A stretch of DNA of 64,000 bases from Hydrogenovibrio thermophilus (GTDB lineage Bacteria; Pseudomonadota; Gammaproteobacteria; Thiomicrospirales; Thiomicrospiraceae), in NCBI RefSeq assembly GCF_004028275.1, contig NZ_CP035033.1:310001-374000 (forward strand), read 5' to 3'. A model generated the notes under the pieces. That model was not told where the DNA came from. It searched no databases and saw only the letters and a list, made by a program, of their open reading frames with translations. Positions 12,312-43,879 of this stretch are shown one piece after another. The position numbers and the translations under genes are program-made. How positions within the stretch are numbered: position 1 is the first letter of the stretch; every line of letters starts with the position of its first letter.

Positions 12312-13175
12312 ATGTCGGTGACGGGCCAATACGCCACATTGTTATCCCGCGGTTTGTCCGGTGTGCAGGCGCCGGAAGTGCAAATCGAGGTGCATGCCAC
12401 GAATGGCTTGCCGAGTTTATCGATTGTCGGTTTGCCGGAAGCCTCGGTTAAGGAAAGTAAAGACCGTGTGCGCAGCGCCGTGATGAGCGCCGGCTTCCAG
12501 TTGCCACCAAAGCGGATGACCATCAACCTGGCGCCGGCCGATATTCCTAAGCAAGGGGGACGTTACGATTTACCGATTGCTTTGGGTATTCTAGTGGCGA
12601 CGGGCCAATTGATTCCGGTGCGCGATCTGAACCGCATCGAATGGTTTGGCGAGGTGGGATTGAATGGGGCTTTGCGCCCCGTTCCCGGGATTTTGCCGGC
12701 CGTGATGCAAGCGGCGCAGGCCGGCCGAACGGTGGTGGTGCCCATGGCGAATCTAGCCGAAGCCAGTTTGGTGACGGGTGCGCAAGTGTTTGGGGCTGAG
12801 AACTTGCTGTCGGTGGCCCGTTATTTGGTGGATGAAACCGCGACATTGGTTGAACCGGAAGCGGTGGCCTTTACCGGCGCGTCTTATGCCGAAGACATGG
12901 CCGATATCCGTGGTCAGCAGCAGGCGAAACGATTGCTGGAAGTCTGTGCCAGTGGGGGGCATTCCTTGTTGATGGTCGGCCCGCCCGGCTCGGGCAAAAG
13001 TATGCTGGCGTCGCGTTTGGTGACCTTGTTACCGGATTTGCCGCTGGAACACGCCATCGAGGTGGCGTCCGTGCATTCGGTTGCCGGTAAGGAGGTGGCC
13101 GTCGAGCGTTTCCAGCAGCGGCAACTGGTTCAGCCACATCATACCGCCACGGCCGCAGCGATGGTCGGGGGCGGT
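12312..13175 (+). pseudogene. comM: comM (YifB) 5' part, interrupted by transposon
   Basis: 288 codons of the Mg-chelatase-like AAA+ helicase ComM: the N-terminal Lon-type domain (GLPSLSIVGLPEASVKESKDRV), then the AAA+ core with Walker A MVGPPGSGKSMLASRL. The coding sequence breaks in the conserved MVGGG motif at the transposon left end. It would otherwise read into the element to a stop at 13262, giving a truncated protein with 29 foreign residues. The rest of the gene lies at 43875-44548. ComM promotes branch migration during natural transformation, so loss should lower transformation. The start ATG at 12312 was chosen because the longer frame overlaps ubiK. Confidence 0.95.
13171..13175. 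repeat. 5-bp target site duplication, left copy (GCGGT)
   Basis: GCGGT immediately precedes TGTCAG and is identical to the five bases after the right end at 43875-43879. A 5-bp duplication is the Tn7-family signature. Confidence 0.95.
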
Positions 13176-25608: not shown

Positions 25609-27099
25609 ATGCCTGAAGAACCGGACAACTTGTTTGATCGTTTACCGGAGCACATTTTCAGACCGCTTGGGGCTCATGAGCACGCGCGTCGCAATTGGTC
25701 GCTTCTAAATCACCTGTATAACGATTTTTTTGCCCCTGAGGCTGACCCACCGGAAGGTGAAGGCTGGTCACAAAAACGCGTGGTGGCTTCGATTGAGCGA
25801 TTTTTAGTTCGATGGGATGATGAGCATGAAACTAATTTTGAGCAACGAGGGGCTCCTGTAAACGTACGCGCACATGATGCTCTTTCAAGCTTTCTGGATA
25901 GTGGTTGGCTTACCATTGATCGAGTTGGTTTTACACAATTTGTGATTATGCGCCCAACTGTCCAAAGCCTCTTTGAGTTGCTCAAAACATTTGCTGAGCA
26001 AGGACCCGAGTTTATTGGTGGGCGTGTGCAATCGGTCCGGAATAACTTGCTGCAGGTAAAGGCAGACCCTGAAAAGAACGCTGCTGTATTTCAAGTTGCT
26101 GCCAAAGAATGCTCTGCGCTTCTTCAAATGTTGAACACCACTCGCATGCGGGTTCGCGAGGCCAGCGAATATTTGCGTACCCAGGAATCAGCAAACCTAT
26201 TCCTAGAGAAATTCTTTGGAGATTACATCTCTAGTCTCTATATCGGAGATTATTCAGACCTCTTTTCCCGTAATCATCCACTCGCATCACGCTGGGATAT
26301 CGTTGATCTCGCTTCCCGAATTACCGAAGAACCAGAAAGTCGGGAGCAATTGCGTCGATGGTATCGCAAAAACCTACGTTGCCGCTCTAACGAGGAAGCG
26401 GATGCATGGATTGAAAGTGATACTTCTCGCGTATTGGCATTGCGCGAAGTCGACCGATTGCTCGCACGTCTGAAAGATGCAGTAACCCGCGCAAATGACC
26501 AAGCCCTTGGCTATCTCCAGTATAAAGTACGTTCTCAGGGTAATTTCGATATTAAGACCGATCAGGTCATAAAAGCAGTTGTGCGGGCTGCTGATTCTTG
26601 GCCTAACGACGAACCTTTATCTTTACCGATAGGCTGGTCGCAAGGAAGGCTCTTGAGTGAGGGAGCATTGAAGATGCCGACCAAGAAGCCGAAAAAACGC
26701 AAAGGAGCAGTCATCCAGAAACGTCAGTTATCACCAGAGGAAAGAGTTCGACGTTTGGTCCGCCAAATTATGAATGGCAACCGGGAAGTTTCCGAAACGC
26801 GGATTATTCAGTACATTGACCATCACGTAGACCCCGGAGGGGTTCTAGAAAGCAGTTCTATGGAAGTGGGTAGCATCAACGATCTATGCATCTTGGCAGC
26901 ATTCACTCGACTGGGGTTGATAGCTGAACGAACGCAAAGGAATACACGCCAAGGTATTTTACGCCCGAAATTATTTGAGGAACTCAGCGAACATATTGAG
27001 ATTGAGCTCACAGGTGAACGCTTTGAAAACGAATACTTAGAAGCGCCTGTAGTAAGGATACGCCGCCGGAAAAAAGGGAGTCCAAACAATGCCTATTAG
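25609..27099 (+). CDS. jetA: Wadjet protein JetA (MukF/MksF-like kleisin)
   Basis: 496 aa. Length, position and helical, charged character fit JetA, the kleisin subunit of Wadjet. Winged-helix-like ends flank a helical middle (VQSVRNNLLQVKADPEKNAAVFQVAAKECSALLQML). It bridges the JetC heads and contacts JetB. It is first in the jetABCD order, with an 11-base overlap to jetB. GC content is higher than in the flanking cargo genes, suggesting separate acquisition. Confidence 0.9.
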   Translation: MPEEPDNLFDRLPEHIFRPLGAHEHARRNWSLLNHLYNDFFAPEADPPEGEGWSQKRVVASIERFLVRWDDEHETNFEQRGAPVNVRAHDALSSFLDSGWLTIDRVGFTQFVIMRPTVQSLFELLKTFAEQGPEFIGGRVQSVRNNLLQVKADPEKNAAVFQVAAKECSALLQMLNTTRMRVREASEYLRTQESANLFLEKFFGDYISSLYIGDYSDLFSRNHPLASRWDIVDLASRITEEPESREQLRRWYRKNLRCRSNEEADAWIESDTSRVLALREVDRLLARLKDAVTRANDQALGYLQYKVRSQGNFDIKTDQVIKAVVRAADSWPNDEPLSLPIGWSQGRLLSEGALKMPTKKPKKRKGAVIQKRQLSPEERVRRLVRQIMNGNREVSETRIIQYIDHHVDPGGVLESSSMEVGSINDLCILAAFTRLGLIAERTQRNTRQGILRPKLFEELSEHIEIELTGERFENEYLEAPVVRIRRRKKGSPNNAY

Positions 27100-27727
27100 T
27101 TGGAAACGTATTGCAGAACAAGACGAAGCTTACACTGTTCGGGATTTTCAAAAAGCGGCGCAACGCCTGATTGTTGACCAAGTATTGTACCAAGCAAACC
27201 CGAAGCAGAGAGCAGATTATGATTTGGTGGCGACACATGAAATTGTCTTTGCAGAAGCGCTGGATCTATTTGGCTGCATGCTTGATCTCAATGTTCAAGA
27301 GCGATACGCAGCTTGCGTTCCAACGGTCACCGAGGTGAGCAAGATTCCTCTGATGCACACTTTGTTAGCTTTAGTATTGCGAAAACTTTATGACCATCAC
27401 ATGAATAGTGGGTCACTTCACGCAGGCATTGCTGGAGTTAGCTTGCCTGAACTCGAAGCGGCATTCCAGGAATCAACAGGGCGAGAATTGCCAATGAAGC
27501 CCCAATCGGAGCTGCTAGGGATGATGGACGCGATGAAGAGGTGGGGGATAGCTCGCTTGGTCAGAACTGAGAACTTAGGAGAGGCAGCATGGTTTGCAGA
27601 GATTCTTCCTGGAATTCAGAGCCTGATCAACGAGAGAACTCTCGTCATGCTGAAATCACATGCCGAATTTCTGTATGAGCCTGATGGATTGGATGATAAA
27701 GAACAACAAAAGGAGAGCTCTTTATGA
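27089..27727 (+). CDS. jetB: Wadjet protein JetB (MukE/MksE-like, DUF4194)
   Basis: 212 aa. It has the DUF4194 features: FQKAAQRLIVDQVLYQANPKQRADYDLVATHE, VSKIPLMHTLLALVLRKLYDHHMNSG and MDAMKRWGIARLV. JetB is the tandem winged-helix (KITE-type) subunit of the SMC complex. It overlaps jetA by 11 bases and jetC by 4 (ATGA), so translation is coupled. Confidence 0.92.
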   Translation: MPISWKRIAEQDEAYTVRDFQKAAQRLIVDQVLYQANPKQRADYDLVATHEIVFAEALDLFGCMLDLNVQERYAACVPTVTEVSKIPLMHTLLALVLRKLYDHHMNSGSLHAGIAGVSLPELEAAFQESTGRELPMKPQSELLGMMDAMKRWGIARLVRTENLGEAAWFAEILPGIQSLINERTLVMLKSHAEFLYEPDGLDDKEQQKESSL

Positions 27728-30700
27728 AACAGCTCAAACGCATCTCATTGGTTCAATTCTATCTCCATGAAGCAGTTGATATCGAGGTAGAAGGAGCAAC
27801 TGCCTTCTTGGGACCAAATGGCTCAGGTAAATCGTCGACACTTGATGCTATACAGATCGCTATGCTTGGAGGCAATCAGCAGTATATCCGGTTTAATACT
27901 CAGTCAGTATCAGCGAAGCAGCGGCGTAGCTTAGCTGGATACTGCCTTGGTATGCTTCGCAATCCAGAGAAAGATAGTGAAGTGATTGGACGGGCGCGTG
28001 ACGAGGCTCGGACCTACATCGTTTTAGTCTTTGGCAACGATATGGAGACTGAATGGGTTTCTGCTGGAATCTGCATTGAAGCTGATTCAGAAACTGATGA
28101 GCATGAGGTTAAAGGCCTTTTTGTACTTCCGGGGATAGCTCTGAAGGCTGACGACTGTATTGTTTATGATGGTAGTGATCAGCGCCCTATTCCATTTGCA
28201 GACTTTCGAGAAAATGCACGCGAGCAAGCTCGGAAGAGCGGGCGAACTCCTATCTTTACGGATAAGTCGAGTGAATATGTCCAGGAGTTGCTATATTCGC
28301 TGAATGGCGAAAGAATGCCCAATTCCCGACAGTTTATGTCGTCTTTTGTGAAGTCGATGACTCTGAAGAATGTCGATTCGATTGATCAATTTGTCCGAGA
28401 TTACGTCGTTGAATCTAATCCAGTTGATATTGCGACGTTTCGCAAGCAGGTCGAGCAATTTATCGCTTTACGTGATCTGATCATGAGAACAAAGGCAAGA
28501 ATTTCACAGCTTGAAGGTATCATTACTGACTTTGATAGAGCACAGCAGGCAGAATGTCGAATCGCAACTCTTGAAGCCATAAAGGCGGTCTTCAATGTCG
28601 AATGGTTAGGAGAGAAGATTGACAATATTGAAACCCAGATTGATACACTCAAATTCCAGATAAAAACTGCAGAAGGCCTTGCAGCTTATGCGAAGGAACA
28701 GCGAGATCTCAAACAAGATGAAATTACCCAACTGAAGGTTCGCTTGGAGAGCGACCACAAAGAGCAACTTCGGCAACGTCTTGAAGATCAGATTAGCTCC
28801 CAGCGCGAACTAATCACTGCCTACCAACATCCGGAGATATCTCGGGCCAACCGCCTTATCAGTTCGTTAAGAGAATTGATCGACGAACCGAGTTTTTCTG
28901 CTATTCGCAGTCTTATGAGTACAGTGGTTGATGCGTTGGTAGAGGCTCGGGGAAGCGAAGACCCGGGAAGCGCGTTGAGCAAATCAATTTGGAAGCACGA
29001 CGGAAACCTTTCACAAATTCGCATCTTTTCCCAGTCTAATCTGACTACGATCCAAAAAAAGCAAAATGAACTGACCGAGGAACGTGATGCAATTCGACGT
29101 CGGATTTCAGCGGCAGCTCAAACAGGACGCTTGTTGAATGATGGTGCAGCGCGGTTACTAGATATACTTAATCACGCCGGTATGGAGGCTAAGCCTCTGT
29201 CGGCGTTACTACGTATTTCGGATCCAAGCTGGGCTCCGGCATTGGAGGCTTATTTAGGTGGCGACCGTGATGCTCTGATTATCACGGAAGGAAATACCCG
29301 TGAGGCGGTCAAACTCTTACGCCAGGCGAGGCAGAGTGGCATTCAGGTAAGCGGTGCGGCAATCATCCAGCCATTTCATCTCCGCAATATTGACACTTCC
29401 GCTAAAGGTGAGGAATTCGCATTGGGTGTTTTTGAGACAGATGACGAAACGGCGCGCCGTTTCGTTTGGCAGAAGTTCGGAAGCATGCGTTTAGTCGATA
29501 CGGAACTGGAGCTCGAAACTCATCCAAGAGCAATTACCCGTGACGGAATGCTGAGTCAGGGAGGTTTGACCAAATCCATCCGTATCGCACCTATTAGTGA
29601 TCTTCGTATAGGTAAGGAAGTCCAGGACACATCTCTGTTAACGAGACATGCATCGGAGCTCCAGGGAGAGCTGGAACAGTTTGAAAAGCACAGGAAACGT
29701 GTGGAAGGGCTCGAACAAGCTCTTTTTACCAACGCCAACGATGACGGACAAGGTGTCACTGAGAAACTTGCTGAAGCTAATGAGGTGATTAACCTGGCAA
29801 ACCAGAAACTCAAGAGTCTAGATGTTTCACACCTAGACGAGTTGAAGTCTCTTCTTAATACTGCTGTCTCGAAACATTCAGAGTATGACAAACAATATAC
29901 GGAGCACGATCGACTTGCAGCAGGATTAAAAGAGCAAATAGGGCAATGTTGGGAACGGAAAAAGCAACAGGAACGACAGTTCCCAGCAATACGCCAAGCT
30001 GAACATGAAGCTGTAACCAACGCTTTGGTCAATAAAGAGTGGCTGGACAGTATGAAAGACGAGATTGAGCGCGCCGAAACCAGCTATGATTTGCGACTTA
30101 AAGAGGTGGATAGGAAACTTGACTATCACACTCCTCGCTTGAGGAATGCCGAGGAAAAAGCCTCTCTTGAGCTTGCCCGTTATGTTCAGGACGAGCGTCT
30201 AGATGTTCAAGTTGCAGATATGGAATGGCATGAACGTTACGACTGGGTTCTAGAGGAGAAAATGAAGCTTTTTGATACGGAATTGCATCGGTACGAAGAG
30301 GAAGCTGAGCTAGCCCGTCAGGCGTCTGAGGAAACGCTGCGCTCGGACATCGCCATGTCTCTCCATGATAGATTCAAAGAAATGGAGTTGGAGCGCCGGG
30401 AGAGAAACAAAATACTTGAGTCTTGTCCTTCATTCACTGGCGGAGAACGTTACAAGTTTACGGCTAAGGTTGTGCCACAATATGAAGCATTGGTGCGATA
30501 TATCAACCAAATTGCTCAAGACGACAACAATTTTTCTTTGTTTGCAGAAAATCCCGATGAGATTAATGAAACACTTCGCGATCTCGTAGAAGCCGCAGCT
30601 GACTCAGGTAACGCAAGTGGGGTTCTAGATTATCGACAGTTTTATACTTTTGATTTAGACATCCTAGTCGATGGTAAAAGAGTCGATCGAATGAGTAACC

Positions 30701-31146
30701 GGCAAGGGGCGGGATCCAATGGTGAACATATAGCACCTATGTATGTTGCTGCGGGCGCAGCTCTTGCAAAGGCTTATCGGCTCCACAGTAACAAAGGGAA
30801 GCAACGCGGTATTGGACTTATTTGCCTTGATGAGGCTTTTCATGGCATGGACACAATCAACGCTATAGCTACAGCACGTTTCCTACAAAGCATTGGCTTG
30901 CAGCTCATTATGGCGGGGCCGGAGCTTGAACGCACTAAGCTGGCACCTGTAACTCAGACTATCTATGACCTGGATCGAGAAGGTTTGGATCTACAAATGG
31001 AACGGACCAAGTTCAAGGAGGCAGCCAACAAGCTGATGGTAAGTGATATGCCTGACGAGAACCCTGAAATTATGAAAGGTGCGTATCAGCAACTCGGACT
31101 TGAACAGCCAACAGAATATGCACTTTCCAATGATGGTGGACAATGA
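27724..31146 (+). CDS. jetC: Wadjet SMC-like ATPase JetC (MukB/MksB-like)
   Basis: 1140 aa. Walker A FLGPNGSGKSSTLDAIQ is at about residues 27-43. Long coiled coils flank a central hinge, with NDGAARLLDILNHAGMEAKPLS near it. The C-terminal head has the signature-like RQGAGSNGEHIAPMYVAAGAAL and Walker B GLICLDEAFHGMD near residue 1035. The ATPase forms the DNA-loop-extruding motor that detects circular plasmid DNA. It shares a 4-base overlap with jetD. Confidence 0.95.
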   Translation: MKQLKRISLVQFYLHEAVDIEVEGATAFLGPNGSGKSSTLDAIQIAMLGGNQQYIRFNTQSVSAKQRRSLAGYCLGMLRNPEKDSEVIGRARDEARTYIVLVFGNDMETEWVSAGICIEADSETDEHEVKGLFVLPGIALKADDCIVYDGSDQRPIPFADFRENAREQARKSGRTPIFTDKSSEYVQELLYSLNGERMPNSRQFMSSFVKSMTLKNVDSIDQFVRDYVVESNPVDIATFRKQVEQFIALRDLIMRTKARISQLEGIITDFDRAQQAECRIATLEAIKAVFNVEWLGEKIDNIETQIDTLKFQIKTAEGLAAYAKEQRDLKQDEITQLKVRLESDHKEQLRQRLEDQISSQRELITAYQHPEISRANRLISSLRELIDEPSFSAIRSLMSTVVDALVEARGSEDPGSALSKSIWKHDGNLSQIRIFSQSNLTTIQKKQNELTEERDAIRRRISAAAQTGRLLNDGAARLLDILNHAGMEAKPLSALLRISDPSWAPALEAYLGGDRDALIITEGNTREAVKLLRQARQSGIQVSGAAIIQPFHLRNIDTSAKGEEFALGVFETDDETARRFVWQKFGSMRLVDTELELETHPRAITRDGMLSQGGLTKSIRIAPISDLRIGKEVQDTSLLTRHASELQGELEQFEKHRKRVEGLEQALFTNANDDGQGVTEKLAEANEVINLANQKLKSLDVSHLDELKSLLNTAVSKHSEYDKQYTEHDRLAAGLKEQIGQCWERKKQQERQFPAIRQAEHEAVTNALVNKEWLDSMKDEIERAETSYDLRLKEVDRKLDYHTPRLRNAEEKASLELARYVQDERLDVQVADMEWHERYDWVLEEKMKLFDTELHRYEEEAELARQASEETLRSDIAMSLHDRFKEMELERRERNKILESCPSFTGGERYKFTAKVVPQYEALVRYINQIAQDDNNFSLFAENPDEINETLRDLVEAAADSGNASGVLDYRQFYTFDLDILVDGKRVDRMSNRQGAGSNGEHIAPMYVAAGAALAKAYRLHSNKGKQRGIGLICLDEAFHGMDTINAIATARFLQSIGLQLIMAGPELERTKLAPVTQTIYDLDREGLDLQMERTKFKEAANKLMVSDMPDENPEIMKGAYQQLGLEQPTEYALSNDGGQ

Positions 31147-32381
31147 TGTTGGGCTCAGGAGGGGATGCATGTGATAAGAGTATGCGTCGTCTTATCAAAA
31201 AGGCTGCGCGTGCTATTTTCGCAGATGGCGCACTGGAACCATCAGTGGAAAAGTTTTCGGTGAGTTTGCCAGCAACGAAATCGAGCTTGCAGGAGTACTA
31301 TCGTCTTGAGCGCTTTGCAGATAGAGAGGAGTATCACGCGCGACTTCAGATCTACTCAAAGGTAAAAGCGATAGCGGTAGATTGGGACCTCGGTGCAGGA
31401 GATAGAGGCCAGCTTGCTAGAGTAACGCTACTCGACCCTAAAGCAGTAGTGAATATCCTTGGTGAAGAATTACCTTGGGAAGTCGCATCGCGGGCCATTG
31501 CAAAAATAGAATCTGTCGCTAGAGAAGGGCTTCCTAATGTTGACCGGATTGTTGATGACTGGCGTCGTGGGAAGGCCCCTGCCGGAGTGGCAGCCGAGCG
31601 TGCGAATCAACTGGTCGATAGCATGAATATCATTGATGCGGCGCAGAAACTTTCTGAAGGTGGACAAGATGTTTTGCTCCGGAAGCTGAGCGCCAGACTA
31701 TTCCACGATAGTAAAAGGATAGAAGCGCTCTCTCGTCAGCTTGCTTTTCTTCTTGGAGAACCTACAGAAAGCGAACAAGAGGATGTTTTTGCAAGGTTGG
31801 GTTTGGTAAAACATCCTCAACCTATGCTTCTGAGTGGTCCAACGGGTTGCAAAATTCAAATTGATGGGGAGGCCATTCCACTGGCGTACCCTTATCTAGG
31901 CGTCAGGCCGGACAATATTAGAGGTCTGATTTGTTCAAGTGATCGTATTCGGCGTGTTCTTACCATTGAGAATCTTGCTAGCTTCAACGAAGCAGCTGAC
32001 AGCTCAGAAAACGCGAAGGATTTGCTGATCGTTTATCTTGCTGGTAACCCTACACCATCTTTTCTTGCTGCATACAATCGAATACTTGGATCGTTAGAAC
32101 CCACGAAAATACTGCACTGGGGCGACATTGACCTAGGAGGGTTTAGGATTGCGGCAAGGTTGGCCGATAGCGTCAAAACTATGGGCTACACTCTTGATCT
32201 TTGGCGAATGAATCCCTTAGAGGTAGTTACAGGCCAGCAAAAAACCGCTCCACAAAAGAAAATCGAAGAAGTATCAACAATATGTAAGAACTACGGATGG
32301 AGCAAGGAAGCCGAAGGACTGCAGAATTCCCCAGTTTTTCAGGAGCAAGAATTCATCGACTGGGTTTCTCCGAATGATTAA
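31143..32381 (+). CDS. jetD: Wadjet nuclease JetD (Toprim, topoisomerase VI-like)
   Basis: 412 aa. The N-terminal region is DUF3322-like (SKVKAIAVDWDLGAGDRGQLARVTLLD). The C-terminal half is a Toprim domain of the Spo11/topoisomerase VI A kind, with glutamate in RVLTIENLASFNE and the DxD motif in LHWGDIDLGGFRI near residue 321. JetD cuts DNA trapped by JetABC. The gene overlaps jetC by 4 bases and completes an intact four-gene Wadjet operon. The catalytic residues appear intact. Confidence 0.94.
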   Translation: MMLGSGGDACDKSMRRLIKKAARAIFADGALEPSVEKFSVSLPATKSSLQEYYRLERFADREEYHARLQIYSKVKAIAVDWDLGAGDRGQLARVTLLDPKAVVNILGEELPWEVASRAIAKIESVAREGLPNVDRIVDDWRRGKAPAGVAAERANQLVDSMNIIDAAQKLSEGGQDVLLRKLSARLFHDSKRIEALSRQLAFLLGEPTESEQEDVFARLGLVKHPQPMLLSGPTGCKIQIDGEAIPLAYPYLGVRPDNIRGLICSSDRIRRVLTIENLASFNEAADSSENAKDLLIVYLAGNPTPSFLAAYNRILGSLEPTKILHWGDIDLGGFRIAARLADSVKTMGYTLDLWRMNPLEVVTGQQKTAPQKKIEEVSTICKNYGWSKEAEGLQNSPVFQEQEFIDWVSPND

Positions 32382-33539: not shown

Positions 33540-35003
33540 ATGAGAAGCATCGGAGCCGTAATATTTGATTTAGATGATACTTTAGTAGCTACTAGCACAC
33601 TGGAGGACTATAGAGTAAAAGGCGATAGGCAGGGCTTAGATGCAAATATACATAAATCTGTATTATTTAAGCCAGTGAAAGGAATGCTTCAAGCAATAAA
33701 AGACCGTGGTTTACCTTTAGGACTGGTCACTAACTCTCCTAGATGGTATGCAGAAAAGTTATTAAGGTATCATGAGATTGATATTTTTGATGCAGTGGTT
33801 TGCTATGACGATGTTGGTCAGGTTGGCATGAAACCATCACCTAATGGAATTAAGTTAGCTTTAGAAAAATTAGGTTTTGAGCATGGAGATAGGGCTGTCT
33901 ATATAGGAGACCACGATAATGACTTCGTGGCCGCTTACGAAGCTGGAATAAAACCCCTGGCCCCTTCATGGGCAAAAAGAAATCCAATTTCAAAAATACC
34001 GGCGGTGATTATTAGCTCTTCTACTCTCATTGATAATTTAAGCGATTATGAAGAATTAAAGCTGATTGCCGATAGAACAGCGAAGCACAAGGCGTTTGAT
34101 TTCCCTAAGAAACAAATGAATTTCATGCCGTTAAATGAAGATGGTAATCTTGTGCCAATTGAAAAAAATAAAATCAAGCTTATTACCTTTGGAAGGTACT
34201 TCAGCCAAAAATCAGCCTTAACCGCAAAATTACATGAAAGTCATCAGTTATCAAAGGATATTGTTGCAAAGGAAGAAAGTGAGACATATGTTATTCCTCA
34301 ATATTATGTGAATTTAATTGCAAGGGTGGTAGAGCAATTACCATTGTATTTGTTCAGGGGAACGGGAAAAGTTTTTGATATAGTTACAGTTGTACCAGCC
34401 AAAAAAGAAAAGAATCCTAGGCTTGAAAATATGCTCAAAAGGGTTGCTAAATTGAATAGCTCAGAATCGATTTTTATTGAGGATTTATTTGAGTTTTCGA
34501 AAGGTGCACCGAGTTTAAAAACTTTGGGAGCAAAAGCAAATCGAGAAAGAGCACTTCACGAAACGCTAAGCATAAAACAAAAGCATATTGGTTTGGTGAA
34601 TGGAAAATCTATTCTGATTATTGACGATGTTATTACAACTGGCGCTACATTTAGCCATATATTTTCTCTTCTTGAAGGGGCAGGGGTAAGTTTTACCTTC
34701 GGAGCATGTTTAGCAAAGACGGTTAGTACATATGAAGACGCTCCTATTTGTCCGAAGTGCGGCAGGCAGATGCGAGTTAGAAAGCGCAAAGATGGATCTG
34801 GTATTCATTTTTATGGTTGTACTGGCTATTTTGAAGCAGAAAATAAGTGTAGTCACACAGAGTCCATAAAGGTTAAAGATTGTCCCAGTTGTGGAAGGAA
34901 GATGGCCAAACAATATAACTCAAAAGAAAACAAGGTGTTTCTTGGGTGCGAGGGATTTAGGGACAAAACAAACCCGTGTTCATATGTTGAGAGTTATAGG
35001 TAA
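33540..35003 (+). CDS. HAD phosphatase-phosphoribosyltransferase-zinc ribbon fusion
   Basis: 487 aa with three parts. Residues 1-160 are a HAD hydrolase with all motifs: D10-L-D12-D-T, T64-N65, K98 and G-D124-H-D-N-D128. About 215-400 is a ComF-like phosphoribosyltransferase whose PRPP loop reads IIDDVITTGAT near residue 360. About 404-485 holds two topoisomerase-type zinc ribbons (CPKCGRQM ... YGCTGYF; CPSCGRKM ... LGCEGF). The stop is 2 bases before a DprA-like gene, so they form an operon. A nucleotide- or base-processing enzyme recruited to DNA by the ribbons is inferred. It is AT-rich cargo. Confidence 0.85.
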   Translation: MRSIGAVIFDLDDTLVATSTLEDYRVKGDRQGLDANIHKSVLFKPVKGMLQAIKDRGLPLGLVTNSPRWYAEKLLRYHEIDIFDAVVCYDDVGQVGMKPSPNGIKLALEKLGFEHGDRAVYIGDHDNDFVAAYEAGIKPLAPSWAKRNPISKIPAVIISSSTLIDNLSDYEELKLIADRTAKHKAFDFPKKQMNFMPLNEDGNLVPIEKNKIKLITFGRYFSQKSALTAKLHESHQLSKDIVAKEESETYVIPQYYVNLIARVVEQLPLYLFRGTGKVFDIVTVVPAKKEKNPRLENMLKRVAKLNSSESIFIEDLFEFSKGAPSLKTLGAKANRERALHETLSIKQKHIGLVNGKSILIIDDVITTGATFSHIFSLLEGAGVSFTFGACLAKTVSTYEDAPICPKCGRQMRVRKRKDGSGIHFYGCTGYFEAENKCSHTESIKVKDCPSCGRKMAKQYNSKENKVFLGCEGFRDKTNPCSYVESYR

Positions 35004-35005
35004 AT

Positions 35006-36004
35006 ATGGCTTCAAAAAATACGGAATCCCTCCTCGCATTGCGGTTTTTGAAGGGCGTTGGGAAAAAGTATCTAAATCAGATATCTTTATCGGCTGAGAT
35101 AGCAGGCATTTCAGTAGAAAGCGCTTTTTTTTCCAGTAAATTGGGGCAAGGTAAATTTGATGCTACTGAAGTGCAAGAGGCTTATGAGAAAGCTAAAGAG
35201 CAGATACGTATAGCAGAGGAAATGGGGCACAACATTATATCTAAGCTTGATGATGTGTATCCAGATTCACTGAAAGAGTTGTCAGATGCTCCACCTGTAT
35301 TATTTTGTGCAGGAAATTTATCTATCCTAAAAGAAAATATTGTCACTGTTATTGGAACGAGGTCTCCTACCGAACATGGGAAATATATTGCAAAAAAAGT
35401 GACTGATTGGTTTGTAGAAAATAACTGGGTAATTGCTAGTGGGCTCGCGAAAGGGATAGACACAATTGCGCATAAATCATGCTTAGAACGAGGCGGAAAG
35501 ACAATTTCAGTGTTAGCTCATGGTTTGGAAAAAATATATCCAGCAGAAAACAGAGCGTTAGCTGAAGAAATTATTTCGTCAAATGGACTTTTAGTAACGG
35601 AATACGGGTATAACTCGTATGTTGGCAAATCCAATTTTGTTGAGAGAGATCGTATCCAAGCTGCCCTAGCAAAAGCAGTTCTGCTTGTTCAGTCCGGTTT
35701 AAATGGTGGGAGTTTGCATGCCTCAAGATCGATAATTAATTATGGTAGATATTTAGTTGTAGTTGGGCAGTCAAAAACCGATGTTGCTAATCAAGAACCA
35801 AATATTATGGCTAATGAATTACTGATAAATGGGGAAAAAAGTCAAAGGTTAAAACTGTTGCAAACTGATGAGTTGGGACTAAAAAAAGTACTTTATTTAA
35901 AAGATAAGACACTTTTTGATAAGGTTGATAGCATTATTTTGCGAGGGCCTCTTTATGGTGAGTACGGCGTTGAGTCTCAATATTTGAATAAAGAGCTTTT
36001 TTAG
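35006..36004 (+). CDS. DprA-like SLOG-domain protein
   Basis: 332 aa. It has an N-terminal helical region, then the DprA Rossmann (SLOG) fold: VIGTRSPTEHGKYIA, ASGLAKGIDTIAHKSCL and LAHGLEKIYPAENRALAEEI. The DprA motif FPxRNRIIAGLS is replaced by FVERDRIQAALA, and there is no clear C-terminal winged helix. It is thus a divergent paralogue of the chromosomal dprA at 3276-4412, not a replacement. With the HAD-PRTase gene 2 bases upstream it likely forms a defence or DNA-uptake control module. SLOG domains also bind nucleotide signals. Confidence 0.85.
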   Translation: MASKNTESLLALRFLKGVGKKYLNQISLSAEIAGISVESAFFSSKLGQGKFDATEVQEAYEKAKEQIRIAEEMGHNIISKLDDVYPDSLKELSDAPPVLFCAGNLSILKENIVTVIGTRSPTEHGKYIAKKVTDWFVENNWVIASGLAKGIDTIAHKSCLERGGKTISVLAHGLEKIYPAENRALAEEIISSNGLLVTEYGYNSYVGKSNFVERDRIQAALAKAVLLVQSGLNGGSLHASRSIINYGRYLVVVGQSKTDVANQEPNIMANELLINGEKSQRLKLLQTDELGLKKVLYLKDKTLFDKVDSIILRGPLYGEYGVESQYLNKELF

Positions 36005-36062: not shown

Positions 36063-36770
36063 TTAAGTTATTGTTTCTTCTATCAAAGACCTGAAATCAT
36101 GTAGGAGACTATTTTCAGGTGCTCCTCCATAAACAAGCCAACTGAAATGATCATCCAGTATTTCCAAAGCTTCATCTGATAGTTTGTATCCCGTAAATTC
36201 ATACGACATTGAGTGAGCACCGATTGCTTGGGTGTGATCCAGTCTTAAAATCGATGATTCCCCATTTTTTATCGGAAGGTGATCCCACTGAAACTGTGGA
36301 TATTCGCAATGCTTAACTCTTTCTACAAATGCTTCTGAATAGCCAGCCCTTGAGTCTTTTTTTGAGGCACCATAATACGGTGAAACTAAAACGGTTGGAG
36401 AGGTGGAATGGTTTGGCTTGCCTTGTGTTAGTTTTTTATCAATATCTACTGGATTGGCATTTCCTATAACCAAACAATACCTTCTTTTAGCTCTATATGC
36501 AGCCCAAATCTCTGAGTCAGGTTTTGTCATTGCAGCAACAGGTAAAGAGGAAGCTTTAAATTTTTGTCCTACAGATAAGGGCTTAATAACAATGTCAGCC
36601 CCACTGTGATCAGTAGCGTTTGTTCTTCCAATGGGTTCAAAGGAGTATGGTCTATGATCTACATGAGGGATGAAAGCCTTGATTAGTGCCCCCCTAACTA
36701 AATTTTTCTCTGGGTGATCAATCCACCAGTTGTTTGATAGATTTTGTATACAGTCATCAGGATAAGTCAT
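36063..36770 (-). CDS. Hypothetical protein, candidate toxin next to Panacea antitoxin
   Basis: 235 aa, not recognised. The sequence is mixed alpha/beta and soluble, with an early SFEPIGRTNATDHSGADIVI, a central AAYRAKRRYCLVIGNANPVD and the C-terminal FTGYKLSDEALEILDDHFSWLVYGG. It follows the Panacea-domain gene with a 4-base overlap (ATGA), so the two are cotranslated. By position it is a candidate toxin or effector; nothing in the sequence names a mechanism. Confidence 0.65.
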   Translation of the reverse strand: MTYPDDCIQNLSNNWWIDHPEKNLVRGALIKAFIPHVDHRPYSFEPIGRTNATDHSGADIVIKPLSVGQKFKASSLPVAAMTKPDSEIWAAYRAKRRYCLVIGNANPVDIDKKLTQGKPNHSTSPTVLVSPYYGASKKDSRAGYSEAFVERVKHCEYPQFQWDHLPIKNGESSILRLDHTQAIGAHSMSYEFTGYKLSDEALEILDDHFSWLVYGGAPENSLLHDFRSLIEETIT

Positions 36771-37540
36771 TGCTTCCCTTTTCTCGTATCTGAACCCCAG
36801 ACATCTGTAGAAAACTGAGCTTTTAGTCTGCCTGTAGGGAACTCTTCTCCAGCTAAAGTATCTAGCCAGTTTATTCCATCATTATAAATTTCATCATGCC
36901 TTGGTATTGTGACCGGAATTAATTTTTTCTTGCCGAATGTTCTAGCTAACTTTAGTGCTTTTATTTTCTGACTAAAAGCTTTCTTTTTTTTATTTGAAAT
37001 TTGTTCAAATCTTAGCATGACCTTTTCTATAGGAACCTTATCTTGGTCAGTGTAAATGGAAAAGTCGATATAGTCATTTGGAGCAGTGTTTAACATAGGT
37101 TCAGTTTGATAAACGAAACCAAGAAGCCCCTCAGTATCAGAAGAATATTTTCTAATATTGTTTTTTAATTTGATGGTAATTTCAGAAGGAACCTCTCTAG
37201 ACATTCTTTTTAATAAGTCATCGTCGGATATCTCCCAACGGACTACGTCTTCATCTTTAAAGTGAGAATCAAATGAGTGTCTATTAGCTAGTATTGCTGA
37301 AGTCGCAGCATCTATTCTATTGTTTACTTGGAATGACCATGGCCCAAAGTGAAAGAATTGCCAATTAATTCCTGTAAATGAGGTTCCATTGTGTTTTTGG
37401 GCATAATAAAGGTCTGCAAGATATACATACTTAATTAAATGTATAGGTCCCAGTCTTCGAGAAAGATAATCATCACCCTGCCCAGCAGTTAATAAGGCAT
37501 ATTGGATTATTAAATCTATATTCTTTTCGTTATACGACAA
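36767..37540 (-). CDS. Panacea-domain (SocA/DUF4065-like) protein
   Basis: 257 aa. The N-terminal part LGPIHLIKYVYLADLYYAQKHNGTSFTGINWQFFHFGPWS fits the Panacea (DUF4065/SocA) pattern, in which a KxxYLAD helix is followed by a GxxxxxxxYGP turn. Panacea proteins act as antitoxins for diverse toxins. It is upstream of, and overlaps by 4 bases, an unknown 235-aa gene. The pair stands between the DprA-like gene and tnsF. Confidence 0.6.
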   Translation of the reverse strand: MSYNEKNIDLIIQYALLTAGQGDDYLSRRLGPIHLIKYVYLADLYYAQKHNGTSFTGINWQFFHFGPWSFQVNNRIDAATSAILANRHSFDSHFKDEDVVRWEISDDDLLKRMSREVPSEITIKLKNNIRKYSSDTEGLLGFVYQTEPMLNTAPNDYIDFSIYTDQDKVPIEKVMLRFEQISNKKKKAFSQKIKALKLARTFGKKKLIPVTIPRHDEIYNDGINWLDTLAGEEFPTGRLKAQFSTDVWGSDTRKGKQ

Positions 37541-37710: not shown

Positions 37711-39159
37711 TTAATCCATAAAGGTAAAAATATCGTTAGGGATGTAAAGCTTTTGGCCTGCGATATGTAAATGTTGGGTCTGAAAAGTTTTTTTACTGCA
37801 AGTGATTATTGTGTAGTTTGGCACTTTAATCAGATGAAGATATTCAACTGCTCTTTTTAACAAAGTCTGAATGTATTGCTCGGATTTGGTAGGAAACCTG
37901 AGTGTAGAAATAAGTTTTTGTTTTAGGTGTTTGTTACTTTCTAGCGGGCGGGATAGTTTTATTTTTTTGTCGATGCCTTCTAGTTTAATGGAGCAAGAAT
38001 GATTTTTGTTTAGAAAATGGACAAAGCCGGTTATAGCTGACTTTTGTCCAGGCGAAGCCCACAGGTACCCGTCTAAAATGTCTTGTGTAGGATTTTCAAA
38101 GCAGAAGTACTGGCAATTCTTTAAAAGATGAAATGCCGGCGTTAAAGCAAGCCTTAATGATTTTAGGGTGATGTGTTTTTGCTTTAAGAATACATAGTAA
38201 TCATTGATTAACGAATGCCAAGTTGTTTCGGCCTCGAAGTAGGTTATGTATTTCTCAATGGTATTTAAGTGAGAATATTGTTCTTTGACTTCAGGCTTTA
38301 ATTTAACGATTTCTAACTCATCTAAGAATTTAGTGACAAGTAAATATTTACGGGTTTTTTTAACACTAAACTGGTGCAGTATTTGTTGATAGCTAGGAAA
38401 TCTTTTGATTTCAAGAGTAAATTGATCCAGCTGGAAAAAGTACTCAAAGTATCTCTTAATACTAGTAGCAGCAAAGTTAGTACCTCTTCTTTTGACTAGC
38501 CACTCTGCAAAATCTAGAAAGTGCTGTTGAAAATAGTCTGACAAGAGCGGTTTGTAGAATTTAACCCGCTTACTTAAAGTACGTCTAAAGCTGCATTTTT
38601 CACACACTTTACCTATGCCGGCCGGAATGTTTTTTTTGCAGTCAGTACATTGTCGATTTTTAATTTGAGTGCATTGCTTGCAGTAAGCTCGTTGGTCAAA
38701 GTCATAATAAAAAGGGTTACGTTTTTTGTGGCACTTGTTGCAAGTGCAATATGCGATTTTGTTGTAGCAACTACAGCATAGTTGACCAACCTTCTTTCCA
38801 TTGATTCGACGGTTGGAGACATGGTATTTAAACTGAGAACATGTGTTGCACTGTTTGTATTCTCGAAAGTACTTCGCGCAGGATTTGCATACTGAACCAT
38901 GCACAGTAAGTTTGCCTGGTAGATAGTCTGTTTTTTTACACCTAATACATGGTTTATTTTGCAAAAGGCATTTCTTACAGATAGGTGGTGAAAGGCCTTT
39001 TCGTATTTTCTTGTTATGTCCGCATTTAGAGCATTTTTTGGTACTGAAGAGTCGATCATAACACTTTCGACAATAGTGCCGCCCTTGGTATCGGTAATCC
39101 CAGTTTGTGAGTTTATTTGAACAATTTGAGCAATATGTGTTGGGTGTTACAAAAAACAT
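37711..39159 (-). CDS. tnsF: TnsF-like target selector (zinc fingers plus tyrosine-recombinase-like region)
   Basis: 482 aa. The N-terminal ~210 residues hold many CxxC zinc-binding pairs (CSNCSNKL, CRKCYDRL, CSKCGHNK, CKKC, CIRCKK). Next comes a helical region like the core-binding domain of tyrosine recombinases (HFLDFAEWLVKRRGTNFAATSIKRYFEYFF). A C-terminal part follows in which I see no intact R-H-R-Y catalytic set. It is last in the tns operon and overlaps tniQ by 13 bases. Reported Tn6022-like elements use TnsF, with an inactivated tyrosine-recombinase domain, to target comM, and this element sits in comM. Confidence 0.75.
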   Translation of the reverse strand: MFFVTPNTYCSNCSNKLTNWDYRYQGRHYCRKCYDRLFSTKKCSKCGHNKKIRKGLSPPICKKCLLQNKPCIRCKKTDYLPGKLTVHGSVCKSCAKYFREYKQCNTCSQFKYHVSNRRINGKKVGQLCCSCYNKIAYCTCNKCHKKRNPFYYDFDQRAYCKQCTQIKNRQCTDCKKNIPAGIGKVCEKCSFRRTLSKRVKFYKPLLSDYFQQHFLDFAEWLVKRRGTNFAATSIKRYFEYFFQLDQFTLEIKRFPSYQQILHQFSVKKTRKYLLVTKFLDELEIVKLKPEVKEQYSHLNTIEKYITYFEAETTWHSLINDYYVFLKQKHITLKSLRLALTPAFHLLKNCQYFCFENPTQDILDGYLWASPGQKSAITGFVHFLNKNHSCSIKLEGIDKKIKLSRPLESNKHLKQKLISTLRFPTKSEQYIQTLLKRAVEYLHLIKVPNYTIITCSKKTFQTQHLHIAGQKLYIPNDIFTFMD

Positions 39160-40205
39160 CTAATTTCATCCATGAGTTTTTCGACTTCATCTTTGCTTCT
39201 AGGGTGTATTTCTTGAGATGATTTTTGATAGTTGGGCTTTTCGTATGTTTTATATGAAGGTAGCTGTTGCTTTATGGTTTTGATTGTTTGAGATGAGTAG
39301 CCGTGAAGAGTAGGTCTTAAACTACTTCGGAACACTTTTGCATCTTTCAGCAATTTGATGAGTTCATCAAGTTGTAGAGAAAACATTCTAAAACAGCATC
39401 GCACCGTGAGTTGCCGTTCTTTGAGGCTTGAATTTGAGAAAGATGTTTGGCTATTCAGTATGGAATCGTTGATATCTAAGTACTGGAACAAATGTTTTGA
39501 TTGCGAAGATCTCGTTTTTTGAATAAAAGAAGTAAGACTGTTTAGTGTTGCAAAGAATTCGGTTTTGCTTTTAATTTTCCATGGATATTCTGGTGTGTTG
39601 TCTGATAGGAATCGGTTTAATTGGCCTTGAAAATAAACTATTTCGGGATCCACTTCTTTTTGAACGACTGCGCGCAAATCCAAACCACAATGAACACAGC
39701 AACAAAAATCTGGTTTGTCATAAGTGACCAAATGCGGAGAAAATGCGGTATTGCATTTTGGGCATCCAAGCCGAAAATTTAATTCATGATCCGTACAACA
39801 GGTGTTCCATGAAATTCTCCAGTCTCGTTTGAAGTAAACATCTTTTTCTCTTAGGCATTCTGGGCAGAAGTGTAATCCGTTCGTGTGAACCCTGTTTCGG
39901 TGAGCTAATGGAATTACCCATGGCCAGACGGCATTATTTTTAGACTTGGGGGTAAGAATGCTTGATAGATGGTTTTCCAGAGTGAGTTTGGTTAGGGCAG
40001 AGATAGGAATGCCTGATATGTTAGACAGAGCTTTAAGGAATTCAACGTTAAGAGATTTATCAAAATCTCTTGACCAGACTCTTTGGGAAGGAAAAATAGC
40101 TCCAGATAGGCTTAATGGGTCAGTACCATTTGCTAAAGCCAGTCGAACAATCCATGAGCTGAGTAGTTCATCCTTGAATGGAGTTACTTTTATAGGACTA
40201 AGCAT
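39147..40205 (-). CDS. tniQ: TniQ/TnsD-family target-selection protein
   Basis: 352 aa. TniQ start LSPIKVTPFKDELLSSWIVRLALANG is followed by a zinc-binding region HFCPECLREKDVYFKRDWRIS and CPKCN ... CCCVHCG. It is shorter than Tn7 TnsD. TniQ proteins link target recognition to TnsC. The start overlaps the end of tnsC by 8 bases. Confidence 0.9.
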   Translation of the reverse strand: MLSPIKVTPFKDELLSSWIVRLALANGTDPLSLSGAIFPSQRVWSRDFDKSLNVEFLKALSNISGIPISALTKLTLENHLSSILTPKSKNNAVWPWVIPLAHRNRVHTNGLHFCPECLREKDVYFKRDWRISWNTCCTDHELNFRLGCPKCNTAFSPHLVTYDKPDFCCCVHCGLDLRAVVQKEVDPEIVYFQGQLNRFLSDNTPEYPWKIKSKTEFFATLNSLTSFIQKTRSSQSKHLFQYLDINDSILNSQTSFSNSSLKERQLTVRCCFRMFSLQLDELIKLLKDAKVFRSSLRPTLHGYSSQTIKTIKQQLPSYKTYEKPNYQKSSQEIHPRSKDEVEKLMDEIRCFL

Positions 40206-41127
40206 TTTGCATAATTAGTTCTCTAGGTCTTTTTCCATCGGTCGGCTTTAGCCATTTAAAATGATTAATGATGTCTACCGTAATTTCTTCTACATCGTTG
40301 TCAATGGCATAGATACAGCACTCGTTCAATAAGCGATGAAGGTTTCCAATATTTCCGCCTGATATAGCTAACAGCAAAGGTGCCTTTTCTTTGCTATGTA
40401 AATGGGATGGTTTCTTTAATGGAAGCCGTTTTTCGAAAGCAGCTAATAGTCCCCGAAAGTTCTTATCCATTTCCCATCTAGGAATAACGACTGTGTCAAA
40501 TCGGCTGGCATGTTGAGGGTCAGTGGTTAATACTAATGCTGCATCATGCGTGCCAACGCCTACGATTGGAATCTTTAACTCGTTGCTAAGGCTTTTGATG
40601 ATATTCATCATTTTTCGTTGTTTGACAGGTGTTGTGCCTAACAAGTTATGCAGCTCATCAAGGATGAGCATTTTGACATGGCATTCTCTCATCATATGCA
40701 TGACTTGATGCCTTAGTTTCGCATTGGTATCTGTTGGCCTAAATGCTGTCCAAAACTGTTCAAGGATGGATATGTACAACCCTTTTTCATCTGCTGAGGC
40801 TGGAGATTCAGCAATAATGACTGGTTTTACGGCATAACTGATTTGTTGTTCTTCATCATCAACCATGTAGTCGGAATGCATTTTTGCGAATTGGCTAATC
40901 AAAGAGGTTTTACCCATGTTGGATTCGGCAATCAGCAGAATGCTTTGCATACGTAGTTTTTGTGGGCGGTTAATCAGATTGTTTAGTAGCTTTAATATTT
41001 CATTTGAGACATGGTGGTTAATCCAGAGTGGTTGGTCTAGATATTCTACGCGTTGCTTTTTTGAACCGGTTTTAACTAAAGGCACAATTGGTTCATGTAG
41101 GTGATTGTATGCTTCTGCTTCACTCAT
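40198..41127 (-). CDS. tnsC: TnsC/TniB-like AAA+ transposition regulator
   Basis: 309 aa AAA+ protein. Walker A is AESNMGKTSL (first glycine replaced by alanine) near residues 66-75; Walker B is MLILDELHNLLG near residue 150. A sensor motif (VGVGTHDAALVL) and C-terminal lid follow. It forms ATP-dependent filaments on target DNA and activates TnsAB. Its start lies 17 bases after the tnsB stop. Confidence 0.92.
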   Translation of the reverse strand: MSEAEAYNHLHEPIVPLVKTGSKKQRVEYLDQPLWINHHVSNEILKLLNNLINRPQKLRMQSILLIAESNMGKTSLISQFAKMHSDYMVDDEEQQISYAVKPVIIAESPASADEKGLYISILEQFWTAFRPTDTNAKLRHQVMHMMRECHVKMLILDELHNLLGTTPVKQRKMMNIIKSLSNELKIPIVGVGTHDAALVLTTDPQHASRFDTVVIPRWEMDKNFRGLLAAFEKRLPLKKPSHLHSKEKAPLLLAISGGNIGNLHRLLNECCIYAIDNDVEEITVDIINHFKWLKPTDGKRPRELIMQNA

Positions 41128-41144
41128 AAGGGGTGTCCATATTA

Positions 41145-43016
41145 TTAGTTAAAAACGGGAATATCATCATTCCACAGTTCGTCGTCATCTGGCGTTTGTA
41201 TATGTTGAAATTGTGGAGTGATTTGCTGTAAATTTGTCTTGTTGATTTGTTTCTTTTGTTGATTTCTACGAATCTTTCTAGTTTTTTTAGCGGCTTCCTC
41301 CGCCATTTCGTTTAATTCCTGCAAGGTATCTAAAAGCACATGTTCCGAAAAAGTATATCCGTATTCCTGTATTCGTTTTTTAGCCTCCCGGAACTCCCAA
41401 ATACTCATAGGAGGAATGGTGGTGTTAGCTAATGGAATTTTGAAGTATGTTTGATTGTTTGCTTCATAAAACCAGATGTAGCTTATGTCTCGAGGGTCAC
41501 GTCGGAAAACAAACTTTTTCTTTTTGTTTGTTTCTTCGTTCATCGCATGAAGAAACGGGCGTAGTACGTTATCGAAGTAATTCAAACCATCAATATTTAC
41601 ACCATTGGATTGAATGGTTCGCTCGATAATAGGGAGAAAGTCTTTATAAATCGTGTCAGGATTATTCGGCTTAGGAGGATATCCAATTCCTTCAGAATGA
41701 AGATTCCCAAATATGCCTTGGTGCCATTTGTCTTCAGGGGATACGCCGAGGCTTGAATGACGATTCTTGTGGTAATACTTCGTGATGTAAGTCAGGATAT
41801 ATTTATCAAACTCATCGAAAGTGAAAACGGCATTACCATCAGAATCATACTCTGCTCTTTCCTCTATGTTGGAAAAAGTAGTTCCAGGTAAGTTATGGAC
41901 CTTTTTCATAACCGTCCCGATTAGACGCTCTATATGGGAGCCATATTGAGGCTGGTTAATGGGACGAAAATCCAAATTAATATCATGTATCAAACATGAT
42001 CTTTTCAGCGTATCAGACCTGAATTCACCTGCATTATCGACATGGATCGTCTCCATAAAGCCCCATACTGGCCAAGTTGATTCAACTTTGTTTAATAAAA
42101 GTAGCTCATCTTTGGGGTTGATTGAATTACCAATACACATAGCAACCGACGTTGTGCTTGGAGCATCTAAGCTTAGCCAGTATCCTACAATCATGCGACT
42201 GTAAATGCAGATTGCGAATGTTATATAGGGCCTTCCGATAGGCAGTCTGTATTCATCATCTACTAAAATAAGATCCACGGGCGTATGGTCAATTTGAACA
42301 ACCTGTAAAGGGTAAGTTGCCTCAAAGGAACCTGGAGCAGGCTCATATTTTTTTGCTTTGTTTTTTTTATTTCTACGTTTGAGGCGCTGATATTCACTAA
42401 TCGTACTGATTCTTCGTCTGATTGTGCTATCGCTCGGCGCTTCTATGTTTTGGTGTTTACAAGCTATTTTAATGGCATCAAGAGTTGCTTTAATGGTCGG
42501 CCGTTGTTTTGAAAGATAGTACTCATCGACAATTTTAGAGATGATATTTTCTACTTGAGATTCTGTTTTTATGGTGCCCTTATTGATTCCCTTCTTCTTT
42601 GGGAGCAGGCCAAGCAAACTACCAGTTGCATGATAATGGCGCACCCAGCGGTACAGTGTCGTGAAGTGAGTGCCGTGCTGAGTCGCATGTAGCTCGATTT
42701 CTGAGCGTGATGCATTTTTGAGAATAGGTTGTATTAAAGAAAATCTACGCTCAATTTCTTTCCAGTTATCGTCAGAGACATCAGCGAGGTCTCTGTGAAT
42801 ATGTCCGTTGTTTCGCTCAAGGTTATCATCAAGTTTTGCAATCTCAAGTGAGATGATGAGTAAGCGTTCTGAGCGTCCAGTTTTGATGTCAACGCCAATG
42901 GCTTCCTCGAAGTTTATCAAATTGGTTAACTGGTATATTTTGTTTTGATGAGAAACAAATTCACCTGTTTTAAAAACTATCTTACGCCTGTCTGCTTTTT
43001 GTACATTAGCTCCCAT
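41145..43016 (-). CDS. tnsB: TnsB-like DDE transposase
   Basis: 623 aa from the ATG at 43014-43016, chosen because AGGGAG lies 7 bases upstream; an ATG at 43034 adds six residues. N-terminal helix-turn-helix regions for end binding (SEIELHATQHGTHFTTLYRWVRHY) precede an rve-type DDE core: D in VVQIDHTPVD, D in IHVDNAGEF and E in GSHIERLIG. A C-terminal Mu-type beta barrel and tail follow. TnsB cuts and joins the 3' ends. It overlaps tnsA slightly. Confidence 0.95.
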   Translation of the reverse strand: MGANVQKADRRKIVFKTGEFVSHQNKIYQLTNLINFEEAIGVDIKTGRSERLLIISLEIAKLDDNLERNNGHIHRDLADVSDDNWKEIERRFSLIQPILKNASRSEIELHATQHGTHFTTLYRWVRHYHATGSLLGLLPKKKGINKGTIKTESQVENIISKIVDEYYLSKQRPTIKATLDAIKIACKHQNIEAPSDSTIRRRISTISEYQRLKRRNKKNKAKKYEPAPGSFEATYPLQVVQIDHTPVDLILVDDEYRLPIGRPYITFAICIYSRMIVGYWLSLDAPSTTSVAMCIGNSINPKDELLLLNKVESTWPVWGFMETIHVDNAGEFRSDTLKRSCLIHDINLDFRPINQPQYGSHIERLIGTVMKKVHNLPGTTFSNIEERAEYDSDGNAVFTFDEFDKYILTYITKYYHKNRHSSLGVSPEDKWHQGIFGNLHSEGIGYPPKPNNPDTIYKDFLPIIERTIQSNGVNIDGLNYFDNVLRPFLHAMNEETNKKKKFVFRRDPRDISYIWFYEANNQTYFKIPLANTTIPPMSIWEFREAKKRIQEYGYTFSEHVLLDTLQELNEMAEEAAKKTRKIRRNQQKKQINKTNLQQITPQFQHIQTPDDDELWNDDIPVFN

Positions 43017-43728
43017 ATTGTGAAACTCCCTCATGGTTAGACTCTTCTCTGTTTAGCCAAATAACGCTGCATAGGCTTAGTTTTTTTCCGATGTCGCAAC
43101 TAATTTTCTTAGTGACAAGCATGTGCCATATCTGTCCTAAGGCAACGCCTTGTTCTTCTTTTGTTACAAATAAGGTACAAAGCAAATGATCAACGGTTGT
43201 GTGTCCAATATTGTTTAGGTGCTCAAGGATTCTCATTTCATTTTCAGTATCGTAGTCTCTCTTTTTGTATCTGCTGAGGAACTCTATGTTTTCGAATTCT
43301 TGGGTATAAATCCTCGATTCGTCATAAATACGGAAGTTCATGTCATTTTCATTTGCGAACCGGAGTCCTGTTTTAAATTTAGGCTTTAGTTTTTGGAACT
43401 CGGTTTGGATTTTATTTCGCGGCTTAACTTCAATAATTAGGGGTTTAGGATAGGGTAGATGTGATATTGTGGAAGGAAGTGCTTTAAAGCGGACTAAAAA
43501 ATCTGGCGTATAGGTTGTCATCCTGCCTTTTTGGTTTCGATATTCTAGTGTGAATGGCTGTTCTTCTACATCAATAACAGATTCATTGAATTCGAGTATT
43601 TGTAGTAAGTTCTTTTCGAGTTTAGACTCAAAAGCGATGCTTTTATCACCACGAAATGAAAATATTCCTGACAAGCTACCGTATGTATAACCTATCTTTC
43701 TATTTTTATGAGAGAATTTGATACTCAT
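43006..43728 (-). CDS. tnsA: TnsA endonuclease
   Basis: 240 aa. The restriction-like catalytic residues are visible: E38 (FESKLEKNL), D76 (YTPDFLV) and E100-V-K102 (IIEVKPR). The C-terminal part has a winged-helix-like shape. TnsA makes the 5' cuts needed for cut-and-paste transposition. It is first in the operon, and its promoter must lie within the right-end TnsB repeats, so autorepression by TnsB is plausible. Confidence 0.92.
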   Translation of the reverse strand: MSIKFSHKNRKIGYTYGSLSGIFSFRGDKSIAFESKLEKNLLQILEFNESVIDVEEQPFTLEYRNQKGRMTTYTPDFLVRFKALPSTISHLPYPKPLIIEVKPRNKIQTEFQKLKPKFKTGLRFANENDMNFRIYDESRIYTQEFENIEFLSRYKKRDYDTENEMRILEHLNNIGHTTVDHLLCTLFVTKEEQGVALGQIWHMLVTKKISCDIGKKLSLCSVIWLNREESNHEGVSQYGS

Positions 43729-43874: not shown

Positions 43875-43879
43875 GCGGT
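43875..43879. repeat. 5-bp target site duplication, right copy (GCGGT)
   Basis: Identical to 13171-13175. It is followed by TCGGGCTCG, the continuation of comM. Confidence 0.95.

Follow-up and report, generated by a model that had tools for sequence, protein, structure and literature searches.

ShosTA is an established, named system whose structures have been solved and whose activity has been published. In the form carried by P2 phage, a DprA-like protein paired with a phosphoribosyltransferase (PRTase) protects against T7 and lambda; its authors propose that phage DNA is sensed by DprA, leading to activation of the PRTase effector, and they cite toxin-antitoxin screens for DprA homologues as shosTA antitoxins (PMC9122126). 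Structures homologous to the pair described here exist for ShosA (8zva, 9vzo) and for P2-type ShosT (8zvb, 9w2p, 9w2q), the ShosT structures being near-identical to the Peduovirus P24C9 protein. A review citing Pu 2025 describes ShosT as a PRTase and pyrophosphatase that disturbs purines and damages DNA; the same review associates ShosTA with DNA duplication and filamentation and names T7 Gp0.7 as the trigger (PMC12593503).

RqlHI/PsyrTA is a further described system in which a DprA-like partner controls a toxic PRTase domain. Mutants of the RqlHI PRTase in the PRPP site are non-toxic, toxicity goes with filamentation and induction of SOS, and the antitoxin role belongs to the DprA-like RqlI, which counters and binds the toxic PRTase protein (PMC4670107).

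The locus analysed here lies in a 64,000-nucleotide stretch of the Hydrogenovibrio thermophilus genome (contig NZ_CP035033.1, positions 310,001 to 374,000), called the window. It holds a gene pair that is very probably a ShosTA toxin-antitoxin and anti-phage system (Table 1), because of its PADLOC matches, conserved adjacency, the annotated pair of phage PfAC02a and the homologous solved structures.

Table 1. Features of the locus, with positions counted from the first nucleotide of the window
Feature	Position	Strand	Length	Basis or remark
HAD-PRTase-double zinc-ribbon protein, ShosT-type (putative toxin)	33540-35003	+	487 aa	ORF, PADLOC, Pfam
DprA-like protein, ShosA-type (putative antitoxin)	35006-36004	+	332 aa	ORF, PADLOC, Pfam
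Wadjet type I locus, complete (JetA, JetB, JetC, JetD)	25609-32381	+		PADLOC; upstream neighbour of the pair
Two-gene pair	36063-37540	-		Between ShosTA and the transposition genes
Tn7-family transposon carrying the pair	13176-43874		30,699 bp	Ends TGTCAG/TGACAG
Target duplication GCGGT, first copy	13171-13175		5 bp	
Target duplication GCGGT, second copy	43875-43879		5 bp	
comM (Mg-chelatase-like)	12168-44548	+		Interrupted by the transposon
Transposition genes, whole span	39147-43728			Right end of the transposon
TnsA	43006-43728	-		Pfam
TniA/TnsB-like	41145-43034	-		Transposition gene
TniB/TnsC-like	40198-41127	-		Transposition gene
TniQ	39147-40205	-		Transposition gene
Protein in the transposon, shared with other comM elements	19556-21376		606 aa	
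Host canonical DprA	3276-4412			

Composition of the gene pair

The two genes share a strand, and the TAA of the first is separated by 2 bases from the ATG of the second. The ShosT-type protein consists of a HAD domain (about residues 1-165), a linker, a PRTase domain (about 210-395) and two zinc ribbons (404-437 and 448-480). Pfam detects HAD_2 (3.5e-21) and two copies of Zn_ribbon_Top1 (8.4e-10); Pribosyltran (2.8e-5) falls slightly below the cut-off, the PRPP motif IIDDVITTGAT being intact nonetheless, with D362 and D363 invariant in the alignment with relatives. The HAD catalytic residues are complete (D10/D12, T64, K98 and D124/D128; motif strings FDLDDT, TNS and GDHDND), and each zinc ribbon has four cysteines (C404/407/427/437 and C448/451/470/480). 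A Pfam search of this protein for a helicase domain, as required for PsyrTA/RqlHI, found none.

The DprA-like protein has a SLOG/Rossmann core (DNA_processg_A, 2.4e-58) and lacks both marks of canonical DprA: FVERDR occupies the position of FPxRNR, and no C-terminal winged-helix region is present. FVERDR is a family signature (FVxRDRIQA), as opposed to decay. The host's canonical DprA, also in the window, is 31% identical to this protein over 255 aa.

A preliminary description made from the DNA alone had given this architecture, and it holds throughout: the intact HAD and PRTase motifs and two topoisomerase-type zinc ribbons (Pfam and motif check), the 2-base spacing (ORF coordinates), and the DprA-like gene without FPxRNR and winged helix. 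Its remark that the host TopA lacks this ribbon type also stands, the host genome's only two Zn_ribbon_Top1 matches being those of the ShosT-type gene. A scan for promoters and terminators gave signals not above shuffles, and single-sequence AlphaFold of both proteins gave a mean pLDDT of 34 and no interpretable fold.

Assignment to ShosTA and the state of the HAD domain

Profiles show family membership; conserved adjacency, distribution on mobile elements, and intact PRTase and HAD motifs were likewise observed. PADLOC matches the DprA-like protein to ShosA (PDLC03961, E 5.5e-79, residues 3-271); its match of the larger protein to ShosT (PDLC03962, E 4.9e-12) is modest and covers only residues 269-397, in the PRTase half. 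The DprA-like tree splits the ShosA-like rows, the P2-type solved ShosA included, from canonical DprA with support of 100/99, in a tree whose long branches (P2-type ShosA, phiOH2) are of uncertain exact position. Identity between the ShosT-type protein and P2-type solved ShosT is only about 19%, and Hhalign of the group containing the window protein against P2-type ShosT aligned the HAD region alone. A broader profile matches solved ShosT across the PRTase half, a match that is not independent because P2-type ShosT is inside that profile.

The adjacent pair recurs at 36-47% identity in a Pseudomonas filamentous phage, a Psychrobacter plasmid, an E. coli P4-like satellite and a prophage contig. 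In Pseudomonas phage PfAC02a (OR790968) it shows 44% and 47% identity and is deposited as ShosT/ShosA (PMC11878078). As in the window, a HAD-PRTase protein with two zinc ribbons precedes the DprA-like gene and another defence system (Kiwa) adjoins; unlike the window, the carrier is a filamentous phage as opposed to a Tn7-family element, and the annotated intergenic gap is longer. PADLOC and this annotated relative supply the system name that the preliminary description could not assign. The small Psychrobacter plasmid pA3H5 carries the genes side by side, and the IMG/VR prophage contig has them at the contig edge with an adjoining integrase. The E. coli satellite pair, found in 14 of 5,426 E. 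coli genomes and located at tRNA-Sec in one strain examined, shares order and domains with the window (HAD-IA hydrolase WP_021501220.1 plus DprA; 46% over 444 aa), with one zinc ribbon vs two and about 106 bases between the genes. More distant versions occur on rhizobial plasmids in both gene orders. All full HAD-PRTase-zinc ribbon relatives found adjoin a DprA-like gene and lie on mobile elements; rare co-occurrence elsewhere, named in the preliminary description as a refuting condition, is thus not what the relatives show.

Other searches reached less far. A profile search of genome contigs with the full-length alignment gave matches confined to the HAD region, and single-protein searches of viral contigs gave one distant DprA-like contig and otherwise nothing useful. 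Phylum-wide hits of a PRTase-zinc ribbon alignment were rejected as short PRTase stretches that are ComF-like by size and position, not ShosT. On a Deinococcus plasmid (locus 3359-4777), HAD and a ShosA-like DprA domain are fused in one protein, with a DEAD-box helicase gene nearby. On a Klebsiella plasmid (locus 4072-9674), a DprA-like gene is followed by a 1,558-aa HAD-DUF559-RecQ-like helicase protein, a reuse of the HAD domain alongside a helicase effector.

Two further described systems are among the closest known. RqlHI/PsyrTA resembles the window pair in its DprA-like control of a toxic PRTase domain (PMC4670107) and in PADLOC PsyrT/PsyrA matches; it differs in joining the PRTase to a RecQ-like helicase in one protein and in having a longer RqlI with a C-terminal HTH. 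P2-type ShosTA (Peduovirus P24C9) shares the PRTase toxin, the DprA-like antitoxin and a HAD-like N-terminal fold with the window pair, but its antitoxin gene comes first, its HAD catalytic residues are lost (FSIADVV; GRSQED) and it has no zinc ribbon. All examined members of the window group (the proteins of the window, PfAC02a, Psychrobacter, the E. coli satellite, IMG/VR and rhizobia) have complete HAD motifs, and all its rows except that of R. beringeri have one or two zinc ribbons. An activity lost from solved ShosT may therefore persist in this group.

These differences also open a possible, though doubtful, reading in which the pair is a mechanistically distinct sister of ShosTA: a two-step, DNA-tethered enzyme with an intact HAD phosphatase and zinc ribbons that makes or degrades a phosphoribosyl nucleotide, as opposed to working by the PRTase alone. 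The kept HAD motifs and ribbons speak for it; against it, the proteins are annotated and profiled as ShosT, the HAD-like fold is present in both forms, and the difference may be one activity lost in the P2 lineage.

Mobile setting and defence cargo

The ShosTA pair is carried by a Tn7-family transposon inserted in comM, whose flanks, rejoined with one GCGGT copy, give a single open frame. TGTCA was rejected as the target duplication: it leaves the rejoined comM out of frame and is part of the terminal repeats. AbaR/Tn6022-type islands in Acinetobacter usually target comM. In two same-genus relatives (G010 and G009), comM is interrupted by different elements, roughly 18 kb long, whose TnsA/TniA/TniB/TniQ are distant (about 30-34% identity) and in which a search for ShosTA or Wadjet found no match; comM looks like a recurrent insertion hotspot in the genus. 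The 606-aa protein, which has no Pfam or PADLOC match, recurs in both of these comM elements, at 97% identity in G010 and 58% in G009, even though identity between the transposases is only about 34%.

Defence cargo adjoins the pair. The Wadjet locus on the same strand is matched with JetA at 1.9e-106, JetB at 6.3e-69, JetC at 4.4e-263 and JetD at 3.8e-96, and further cargo comprises a SoFic-like Fic protein, a metallo-beta-lactamase-fold protein, a 37-kD nucleoid-associated protein homologue and a WYL protein. The preliminary picture of a defence module on a transposon rich in defence genes was right in outline. The minus-strand pair encodes a SocA/Panacea-like protein (2e-4, under the cut-off) and a partner without a match, and is possibly another toxin-antitoxin pair.

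The range of carriers (small plasmid, filamentous phage, satellite, prophage, transposon) would also fit a toxin-antitoxin pair that maintains its plasmid or transposon, phage defence being incidental, as would the citation of shosTA DprA homologues as antitoxins from toxin-antitoxin screens (PMC9122126). Defence-system neighbours (Wadjet in the window, Kiwa in PfAC02a) and the protection given by the P2-phage member against T7 and lambda (PMC9122126) make this improbable. A housekeeping pair in purine salvage or competence, conceivable since HAD, PRTase and DprA folds are each known in housekeeping enzymes, is effectively refuted by distribution: the gene was found in 0 of 368 other genomes of the host class and 0 of 62 of its order, the close relatives found are on mobile elements, and the host already has its own canonical DprA. 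This distribution is typical of a mobile accessory module.

Proposed mechanism and the role of the HAD domain

By analogy with the described systems, ShosT would be the toxin and ShosA the antitoxin and probably the sensor. ShosA would restrain ShosT in the uninfected cell. Phage infection would alter DNA or replication and transcription states, and ShosA would lose control over ShosT; released ShosT, through PRPP chemistry, would unbalance the pool of purine nucleotides and cause DNA damage, and growth of the infected cell would stop ahead of phage release (abortive defence). For the window pair we infer toxicity, antitoxin action, trigger and outcome alike from this analogy. DNA sensing, suggested for the module in the preliminary description, is plausible for the DprA-like protein; the nucleotide-signal role proposed there is unsupported. 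Papers on the family indicate PRTase toxicity, purine disturbance and DNA damage, and a DprA-like antitoxin (PMC9122126, PMC4670107 and PMC12593503). The zinc ribbons might bind DNA or ShosA, and the substrate of the HAD domain might be a phosphorylated compound that the PRTase forms as product or intermediate.

The intact HAD domain is the sole point that goes beyond naming ShosTA. We tentatively suggest an intact-HAD ShosTA subtype, whose effector would need both the PRTase and the HAD phosphatase sites and would be anchored on DNA through its tandem zinc ribbons; the P2 form would be a reduced, dead-HAD derivative. A gene pair that otherwise reads as unknown now has a name and a testable mechanism. 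It raises the question of what the ShosT HAD domain did before it decayed in the solved form, and comparison of intact-HAD with dead-HAD proteins would tell whether the reported ShosT pyrophosphatase is the HAD activity.
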